A stretch of 35,450 nt of DNA from a candidate division Kazan bacterium RIFCSPLOWO2_01_FULL_48_13 (lineage in GTDB: Bacteria; Patescibacteriota; Kazan-3B-28; UBA10110): NCBI GenBank assembly GCA_001771275.1, contig METE01000004.1, positions 135,819-171,268 on the forward strand, read 5' to 3'. This document shows, in pieces, positions 34,365-35,450 of the stretch. The translations under genes and the position numbers were made by a program. Position 1 is the stretch's first letter, and each line of letters opens with the position of its first letter. The notes below the pieces were generated by a model. It was not told the DNA's origin. It ran no database searches and saw nothing but the letters and a program-made list of their open reading frames with translations.

Positions 34365-34718
34365 ATGAGCAAGTTCCAAAAGATCGGCAGCGTTGTGGGT
34401 ACGATAGTTGCCGCCATTGGGCAAGCCGGAGTGGTTTTCGCCCAAAGTGATATAAGAGTAGTAAACCCAACGCAAGTAGGGGGGAGCAGTTTCTCGGCAA
34501 TCATCACCATCATCAAAACAGTCGGCGGATGGATGATGACTTTGGCCGGCGCTTTGGCAGTTATCTATCTTATCTACGGTGGCATTATGTATATTACTGG
34601 TGGAGAGAAGGGCGCTGAGAAGGCCAAGACTATGATCATCAACTCCATTACCGGTTTAGTGATCGTGGCATTGTCCTACTTAATAGCCAACATGGTGTTA
34701 AACGCTATCGGCGCTTAA
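34365..34718 (+). CDS. T4SS_pilin-type (VirB2-like) pilin protein
   Basis: A 117-aa pilin-like protein. The signal peptide ends VVFA-QS (about residue 26-27). Two membrane helices follow (about 44-70, IITIIKTVGGWMMTLAGALAVIYLIYGGIMYI; 88-112, IINSITGLVIVALSYLIANMVL), joined by a polar loop TGGEKGAEKAK. This matches VirB2/TrbC-like major pilins common in Patescibacteria, often thought to feed type IV secretion or pilus machinery. It has its own extended -10 promoter, a visible SD (AAAGGGG) and a strong terminator, so it may be expressed above the rest of the operon. No VirB4, VirB6 or ATPase gene is in the window. Confidence 0.85.
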   Translation: MSKFQKIGSVVGTIVAAIGQAGVVFAQSDIRVVNPTQVGGSSFSAIITIIKTVGGWMMTLAGALAVIYLIYGGIMYITGGEKGAEKAKTMIINSITGLVIVALSYLIANMVLNAIGA

Positions 34719-34773: not shown

Positions 34774-34799
34774 AACACCAAATCCCCTCGACCCCTTTC

Positions 34800-34825
34800 C
34801 CAGGGTTCGAATCCCTCCGACAACC
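34800..34825 (+). pseudogene. Truncated tRNA-like 3' fragment
   Basis: CAGGGTTCGAATCCCTCCG followed by ACAACCA looks like a tRNA T-arm plus an acceptor strand ending in CCA. The T-loop TTCGAAT is canonical, but only 14 rather than 16 bases follow it and no 5' half with a matching TTGTCGG exists upstream. It cannot be a functional tRNA. It may be a relic of a tRNA or an integration scar. Confidence 0.4.
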
Positions 34826-34827
34826 AA

Positions 34828-34861
34828 ATAAAAAATACCACCCACCAATGCGGGTGTTATT
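34828..34861 (-). terminator. Terminator of tRNA-Arg
   Basis: On the minus strand AATAACACCC (34861-34852) pairs with GGGTGGTATT (34843-34834), one mismatch, followed by TTTTATTT. It begins about five bases after the encoded CCA of tRNA-Arg. Confidence 0.8.
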
Positions 34862-34865
34862 TTTT

Positions 34866-34942
34866 TGGCGCGCCCGGAGGGATTCGAACCCCCGACCTGT
34901 CGGTCCGTAGCCGACCGCTCTGATCCCCTGAGCTACGGGCGC
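34866..34942 (-). tRNA. tRNA-Arg (ACG), CCA encoded
   Basis: On the minus strand GCGCCCG (34942-34936) pairs with CGGGCGC (34876-34870). The D-arm is AGCTCAGGGGATCAGAGC, and the anticodon arm GTCGG-CTACGGA-CCGAC gives ACG (A34 usually deaminated to inosine; reads CGU/CGC/CGA). T-arm is GGGGGTTCGAATCCCTC, discriminator G, and CCA is encoded at 34868-34866. TGGTACATT (extended -10, 34956-34948) ends only five bases before the mature 5' end, so transcription might begin almost at base 1. Its first 12 bases are repeated at 35126-35115. Confidence 0.96.
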
Positions 34943-35127
34943 ACATAAATGTACCAGATGTCTGCCTAATTTTCCGGTCTCATCACTGTCGCTGAACGCA
35001 CTTCGTCTCGTCCCTCGTAGTCCAATCTATATCGGAATCCTCCTTCGCTCTTTGAGCTTCGGGCGGACAGGGAGGATAGACATCATAATTCCGATGAGAC
35101 TGGACGAAGTGGGAAGCTACGGGCGCA
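34931..35127. repeat. Structured element flanked by a 13-bp repeat of the tRNA-Arg 5' end
   Basis: AGCTACGGGCGCA occurs at 34931-34943 (tRNA-Arg 5' end) and again, same orientation, at 35115-35127. The 171 bp between are non-coding and rich in complementary segments: GTCTCATC (34977-34984) with GATGAGAC (35093-35100); CACTTCGTC (34999-35007) with GACGAAGTG (35103-35111); ATCGGAAT (35031-35038) with ATTCCGAT (35088-35095); ATCCTCC (35037-35043) with GGAGGAT (35071-35077). The first two helices cross each other, so they form a pseudoknot or alternate. Confidence 0.6.
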
Positions 35128-35133
35128 TAAGAT

Positions 35134-35450
35134 TCAGATTTTCAGGAATCGATTGATCCTATCAATCAAGTCTTCCTGCTGATTCTTGGATTCCGGGATC
35201 TGATTACCTAATGCTCCCCGAACCTGCTCAATCAACTCCGGGAGGATAACCAATGAGATTACCGGCATAAACCTTTGGGTAGAAATTAGATTCAACTTAA
35301 TCGCCCCATCTGACTGCGATATCCAGAAAGTTTTCAGCTGATCGTAAGCCAAGGCCCGCTTGCCAATCGTTACTCCCTGGCTATCAATTCGACAGCCCAC
35401 TTTCTCCGGTGACATTCTACCCGATAAGTATAGTGCCACTCCCACCATAA
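35134..35450 (-). CDS. Partial gene, probable PH-like membrane protein (C-terminal part)
   Basis: The minus-strand frame is open to the window edge, so the gene is cut off at its 5' side; the ATG at 35448 is probably internal. The 104 visible residues start with the end of a hydrophobic segment (MVGVALYLSG). They continue with a small beta-rich domain (CRIDSQGVTIGKRALAYDQLKTFWI; IKLNLISTQRFMPVISLVIL) and an ending helix (EDLIDRINRFLKI). The G-V-x-I-G...YDQLKxFWI pattern resembles short two-TM, PH-like proteins of these bacteria. Function unknown. Confidence 0.6.
   Translation of the reverse strand, partial: MVGVALYLSGRMSPEKVGCRIDSQGVTIGKRALAYDQLKTFWISQSDGAIKLNLISTQRFMPVISLVILPELIEQVRGALGNQIPESKNQQEDLIDRINRFLKI

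Follow-up and report, generated by a model that had tools for sequence, protein, structure and literature searches.

A palindromic repeat at a probably split tRNA-Arg gene, and displaced tRNA fragments across the genome, of a Kazan bacterium

Transfer RNA genes are classic integration sites. In tDNA islands, as described with Islander, the hallmark is a displaced end fragment of the tRNA gene that stands on the proper side and in the same orientation; 5′ fragments occur in 159 of 3919 islands, and the crossover sites fall in the anticodon loop, the T loop and the T/acceptor junction (PMC4383910). REP sequences are palindromes tagged with GTAG and CGTC that are often found near RAYT transposases (PMC3733652). 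The locus described here lies in the window, a stretch of 35,450 nucleotides of DNA from a candidate division Kazan bacterium, where an intact tRNA-Arg(ACG) is preceded by a small palindromic repeat (family B) and by a second copy of its own first 12 bases. As in tDNA islands, a tRNA gene appears to be split, an intact gene is left and the displaced fragment keeps the proper side and orientation. Unlike tDNA islands, the segment carries neither island nor integrase and the insert is 171 bp. The fragment in the window is a 5′ fragment with its junction between nt 12 and 13 in the D-arm, outside the three Islander sites. Elsewhere the intact tRNA can differ in type, and about half of the tRNA genes are affected. 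The features of the locus are the following.

34365 to 34718, forward strand: T4SS pilin-like gene (PF18895, by Pfam), the other syntenic neighbour
34784 to 34825, reverse strand: truncated copy of a second repeat family (A), an inverted copy of the tRNA-Arg T-arm (34801-34825) and then GGAAAGGGGTCGAGGGG
34830 to 34865, reverse strand: inverted repeat (I2) directly 3′ of the intact tRNA, then a T run; likely the terminator of tRNA-Arg
34866 to 34942, reverse strand: intact tRNA-Arg(ACG), the copy now used (ARAGORN; Rfam tRNA, 63.2 bits)
34943 to 35002, reverse strand: 60-nt spacer between the element and the intact tRNA, fast-evolving (36/60 identical to the congener G001)
34998 to 35116, reverse strand: family B palindromic element (R1 model match, 73.6 bits; covariation), with arms at about 35094-35115 and 35003-35031 and a variable loop at about 35032-35093
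35115 to 35126, reverse strand: most likely the displaced 5′ end (nt 1-12) of a split ancestral tRNA-Arg, from empty-site synteny; base 35127 also matches
35134 to 35448, reverse strand: upstream gene used for synteny, with no Pfam match

The sequence AGCTACGGGCGCA, which comprises 12 tRNA bases and one flanking base, stands at 34931-34943 and again at 35115-35127 with 100% identity, just as a first-pass annotation of this DNA had reported, and the gap between the two copies is 171 bp (34944-35114). A third match at 35055 (85%), inside the variable loop, is probably a coincidence. GCGCCCGTAGCT and B stand ahead of the tRNA-Arg, and the first two bases of the B match overlap the displaced tRNA fragment. 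The same annotation had called the intervening segment non-coding and rich in complementary blocks. Both statements hold: no ORF of at least 80 aa covers the segment, integrase and transposase are absent from it, and the blocks are backed by comparison with relatives. An excised form was not seen, and the segment matched nothing in Rfam 15, either above the gathering score or, when it was compared alone, under permissive settings.

The nature of the 12-nt copy can be read from relatives. Four of them (G003, G004, G005 and G007) have an uninterrupted tRNA-Arg(ACG) that starts 6-12 nt after the end of the upstream ORF's ortholog; the distance is 30 nt in G002, as against 158 nt for G001 and 191 nt for the window. 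In the relatives with these empty sites a homolog of the T4SS-pilin gene is on the other side of tRNA-Arg, as in the window. The displaced 12 nt lie 7 nt past the stop of the upstream ORF, at the place where the old tRNA started, and the intact one starts 184 nt further; the 12-nt copy is therefore most likely the left end of the old tRNA-Arg, still in place and split after nt 12. The first-pass annotation had suggested an element inserted at the tRNA with a target duplication. Insertion is borne out by the empty orthologous sites, the copies at other tRNAs and covariation, but a simple target-site duplication is contradicted by synteny and by a tRNA-Ala locus of G008 (L073), and the left end of the split gene is the best reading of the repeat. 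At L073, GGGCCCGTAGTT on one side of B and CATCTGGTAGAACACTGCATTT on the other correspond to nt 1-12 and nt 13-34 of an ancestral tRNA-Ala; identity beyond the junction is 20/22, which none of 200 shuffles equalled. The intact tRNA-Ala of this locus is of a different type, starting GGGGATGTAGCTC, the ancestral type is still used by the Kazan genome of the window (G000) and by G007, and G007, a congener of G008, has kept it beside the same tRNA-Ile. At L061 in G001, B lies inside displaced tRNA-Val sequence of the type found in G000, and the intact tRNA-Val is of another type. At the level of sequence comparison, these two sister loci put the reading of a split old tRNA on a firm footing. In the window the right-hand remainder of the old tRNA-Arg (nt 13 onwards) is not recognisable with confidence; a candidate to the right of B was rejected as not significant, 89 of 200 shuffles being as good, and no direct 3′ fragment of the old gene survives there.

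Chance resemblance or an assembly artefact is highly improbable. A 12-nt repeat is weak by itself and the assemblies are drafts, but the same arrangement is present in the independent genome G001, and B lies beside tRNAs in the single-contig genomes G007 and G008 as well. The repeat is not due to chance because at a second B copy in the same genome (L002) the duplicated 5′ end is that of the tRNA beside it, Arg(CCG), which is a different one.

The segment is probably the left half of a nested tRNA replacement, in which B lies in the split old tRNA-Arg and an intact copy is nested further in. The ancestral tRNA-Arg(ACG) would have stood about 7 nt past the upstream gene. To judge from its position and from the empty sites, B now occupies the D-arm of this gene, directly after nt 12; its arrival may have split the gene, or it may have entered a gene that was already split. 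The complete tRNA-Arg further in, which is intact and has its own 60-nt leader and terminator, supplies the tRNA; it may have entered the old gene through insertion or recombination. Of that gene, nothing but the outer end, nt 1-12, is still recognisable. Such replacement appears to have recurred at many tRNA genes of the lineage, the newcomer sometimes being a different tRNA of the same specificity. The loci themselves display a split gene, displaced ends, an intact copy beyond, different alleles in some cases and B at recurring tRNA positions.

Similar scars are common in this genome. Sequence stretches around every tRNA gene reported, 46 in the genome, were searched for displaced tRNA fragments, with a swap control in which each tRNA was tested against the flanks of other tRNAs. 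Displaced 5′ fragments were found at 9/46 genes and 3′ fragments at 17/46, where the control gives about one of each, and 21 of the 46 have a displaced fragment of either kind. Nearly all of them start at nt 1 or finish at the CCA end, most 3′ fragments begin at nt 55-58 (the T-loop class) or near the anticodon, and the inserts are mostly about 30-210 bp. At five loci one intact tRNA stands between a 5′ piece on its upstream side and a later 3′ piece on its downstream side. Part of this picture could be mimicked by tandem duplication with later decay. That the locus arose by plain tandem duplication of the tRNA, with one copy decaying and gathering palindromic repeats, agrees with the partial copies that stand repeatedly in tandem at Pro, Met and Lys and with other palindromes (TCCGTCAGCTGACGGA, CCCCGAAGGGG and others) inside decayed copies, but it is quite unlikely. 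The fragments start at nt 1 or finish at the CCA end with little sign of duplicated flanks, the intact tRNA differs in type from the fragments at L073 and L061, and the five both-sided loci are predicted by nested replacement and not by simple tandem duplication.

An ordinary tDNA island offers another account of these scars. In that case a tyrosine-integrase element would have entered the tRNA, restored it and lost all but its end, B being part of the attachment region. This is possible, if doubtful. The displaced end fragments show the side and orientation that are the hallmark of tDNA islands (PMC4383910), many other loci of the genome fit the Islander site classes (nt 55-58), with most 3′ fragments beginning there or near the anticodon, and at tRNA-Asn two displaced fragments enclose a 1.8-kb cargo region, which has B at its end. 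Against it stand the size of the inserts, mostly only about 30-210 bp, the D-arm site at nt 12, which is not among the three Islander crossover sites (PMC4383910), and the presence of B far from tRNAs. The supply of recombinases is also small, with one Xer-like recombinase in each genome of the order except G004, and the single gene of the genome studied here is away from the segment (C4:82599-84377). This only Xer-like recombinase is a 737-aa frame (L098, 1123-3336, forward strand; C4, 82.6-84.4 kb in G000); its integrase domain is interrupted by an insert that resembles an intein and contains a LAGLIDADG-like stretch.

Family B is about 84 bp long and shows strong compensatory changes. In the Kazan genome a DNA search found the second, diverged copy (L002) ahead of tRNA-Arg(CCG), together with the first 12 bases of that tRNA (GTCCCCGTGGTT), and the neighbourhoods of all 46 tRNA genes hold further relatives at Met, Ala, Leu and Asp. 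The congener G001 has a copy ahead of tRNA-Arg(ACG) in the same arrangement as in the window. With a covariance model built from seven sequences, B was found in 7 of the 9 genomes of the order at 24 distinct loci. Twenty-two of these adjoin a tRNA gene, an apparent 5S gene or a fragment of such a gene (19 by an intact tRNA, one abutting a displaced tRNA-Asn fragment and two by an apparent 5S rRNA gene, identified by reading of the sequence), and two are elsewhere. In a sample of the phylum, 8 further genomes among 380 contain B, mostly as intergenic palindromes, and outside the order it is again found at nt 12 of a tRNA-Lys (G112) and a tRNA-Ala (G056). A gapped B signature gave one match over named genome contigs, in Kazan bacterium RBG_13_50_9, and none was found in viral contigs. 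Compensatory changes in relatives and the same block beside other tRNAs, both of which the first-pass annotation had proposed to look for, have thus been found. In the open-licence literature neither these repeats nor tRNA scars of this kind were found to be described for the group.

The position of B within tRNA sequence is recurrent. Where its end can be assigned, the 5′ end of B directly adjoins nt 12 of a 5′ fragment; the displaced fragments concerned are those of Arg(ACG) twice, Arg(CCG), Met, Ala, a Phe- or Thr-like tRNA, Lys and another Ala. In antisense copies the 5′ end adjoins a displaced 3′ fragment at nt 56-67, numbered separately for each tRNA (Leu and Ala twice each, Asn, Val, Met and Asp). 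B is most plausibly a DNA palindrome, mobile now or in the past, that may tolerate or prefer the loops of structured-RNA genes. The 3′-side copies at Ala, Leu and Asp (L054, L056, L065, L069, L076 and L058) have an extra conserved stretch, GGACGAGAAGCAAGG, in common and partly share a terminator hairpin, across four genomes. At L057 and L060 B adjoins apparent 5S rRNA genes, the latter with apparent displaced 5S pieces.

The supported fold of B is one nested, interrupted palindrome. Folded alone, the segment of the window is modestly better than shuffles (z -1.8), and its G001 ortholog has a z of -3.9. An alignment of 7 sequences that was not fitted to any model contains a structure with strong compensatory change. 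Among 36 aligned copies, 93.4% of the cells pair, 13 pairs have changes in both partners and there are 138 doubly compensated cells, as against 38-48% pairing and 2-10 doubly changed cells in slid controls, this alignment being fitted to the model and so biased towards it. The crossing, pseudoknot-like pairing seen in the first-pass annotation (CACUUCGUC with GACGARGUG) is present in the three Arg copies but is lacking elsewhere and is not part of the family-wide structure. A pseudoknotted ribozyme of HDV-like topology was rejected since the crossing pairing is absent beyond the Arg copies and there is no Rfam match; nor did any covariance model of Rfam 15 match B. The element strand has 13 G-T and 20 A-C cells with one doubtful pair left out (p 0.30, no strand preference), while the acceptor stems of tRNAs in these genomes give 30 G-U and 1 A-C. 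Because B occurs in both orientations relative to tRNAs, shows no wobble-strand preference and folds more stably on the opposite strand in 30 of the 36 copies, it appears, as far as its sequence tells, to fit a DNA palindrome better than a sense RNA.

The Arg copies nevertheless raise the case for an RNA, the other suggestion of the first-pass annotation being an unknown structured RNA transcribed just ahead of the tRNA. B could be a functional structured RNA, a leader or cis element ahead of tRNA-Arg genes in the genus, with the duplicated 5′ end as part of a switch, for example one in which it and the true 5′ strand compete to pair with the 3′ acceptor strand. Between the window locus and G001 the B arms are identical at 51/51 positions and the 12-nt copy at 12/12, compared with 36/60 in the spacer; the tRNA-Arg(ACG) is 100% and the upstream protein about 78% identical. 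The Arg-tRNA copies also share an extra pairing of 8-10 bp, kept through a change from U-A to U-G, and the covariation of B is strong. Conservation of the arms exceeds what is expected for a dead scar, and a function is possible. In the two species compared, the identity of the arms could be explained by selection for function or by gene conversion with the Arg(CCG) copy, from which the arms of the window differ at one position (50/51). A functional RNA is unlikely all the same. B is found antisense and 3′ of Ala, Leu, Asn and Asp tRNAs, by apparent 5S genes and in intergenic regions in other families. The counts of G-T and A-C cells (13 and 20) and the more stable opposite strand (30/36) also speak against it, as do the missing Rfam match and the gene conversion between Arg copies that could equally hold the arms alike.

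As a DNA palindrome, B invites comparison with three kinds of short elements. Like REP sequences it is short, dispersed and has compensated stems, but it is longer (about 75-120 bp), its dispersed copies outside tRNAs have no constant GTAG/CGTC tag and no cognate Y1_Tnp is encoded in its own genome. PF01797 has no match in G000, G001, G003 and G006-G008, and within the order a Y1 transposase occurs in G002 and G004 only. Outside the order, Y1_Tnp is encoded by each of the 8 genomes that bear B, as against 178/380 overall, a comparison uncorrected for kinship, and the stretches around 12 Y1_Tnp genes contain no B. A RAYT-driven REP in the Kazan genome was rejected, since it has no PF01797 gene and B is absent around those 12 genes. 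With MITEs, B shares its small size, its non-coding character and imperfect terminal inverted repeats (CCCGCCnnnGTTCAATCT / CCCGCCAAAGTGAAATCT); the one clean junction (L073) has no target-site duplication, the other junctions being too decayed, and no partner transposase was identified. Rickettsia palindromic elements and similar hairpins are, in the form in which PMC3733652 cites them, likewise palindromes lodged inside genes. Here, unlike in the Rickettsia elements as cited there, the host gene is lost and replaced and the insert is not tolerated.

Family A is represented in the window by a truncated copy on the 3′ side of the same tRNA-Arg. The full order is an intact target, a spacer, an inverted copy of the target junction, the core GAAAGGGGTCGGGGAAAC..GTTTCCCC and the displaced target end. 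The core is conserved, non-coding and about 75-150 nt long, with the inverted local target copy on its left and the displaced end on its right. The family is found phylum-wide (L163, L171, L018, L009, L002, L164-L169 and L175). Full members are at Trp, Gly, Asn, Ile and Arg(CCG), and at Asp in G001; other Patescibacteria have it at Gln, Leu, Pro and Ile tRNAs, and in G092 and G247 it is at dnaX and lepA starts, by reading of translations. In a swap test, which is strict because T-arms resemble each other, the inverted copy fits its own target above every other in 9/18 cases. For the two protein-gene targets the own score is 16 and that of the others at most 8. That B generally carries an inverted copy of its target was rejected, with the own tRNA on top in only 4/17; for family A such a copy holds well. 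No Rfam family matches family A.

In this streamlined bacterium about half of the tRNA genes are scarred on a 0.1-kb scale without integrases, and some tRNAs were swapped for different ones during scarring. Such scars are a readable record of the breakage and replacement of essential RNA genes. The two repeat families are spread through Patescibacteria and absent from Rfam. A tentative generalisation, for which the chances are modest, is that Patescibacteria carry tiny non-coding mobile elements (families B and A) that enter structured-RNA genes and drive serial replacement of tRNAs by nested intact copies, sometimes different ones, through a new trans-acting or RNA/ssDNA-guided mechanism.

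Several smaller features were noted beside the tRNA genes. Between the two displaced tRNA-Asn fragments, with B at one end, lies a template/variable repeat pair of the diversity-generating retroelement kind (L079, 1434-2782, reverse strand; about 128.9-130.3 kb of C4 in G000), whose mismatches are mostly on template adenines; no reverse transcriptase is among the ORFs there. A complete tRNA is nested between the halves of an older tRNA at the anticodon loop in L014 (near 1501-1575), L013 (2837-2911), L061 and L075, and these nested tRNAs are flanked by inverted repeats such as CCCCGTTAGAAAT...ATTTCTAACGGGG. Another small repeat of the 3′ side, GATGAGAAGTTTATACCCGAC...CAGGGTAAATCC, ends in a displaced 19-nt tRNA 3′ end at Ser(cga) (L040), Ser(gga) (L049) and Gln (L051), and at Ser(gga) it is in tandem, with a masked stretch. 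Short palindromes, TCCGTCAGCTGACGGA and CCCCGAAGGGGCCCCTTTGGGG-like hairpins, are located in the D-arm part of decayed tRNA pieces at Lys(ctt) (L002), Pro(cgg) (L030), L013, L014, L015 and L017.
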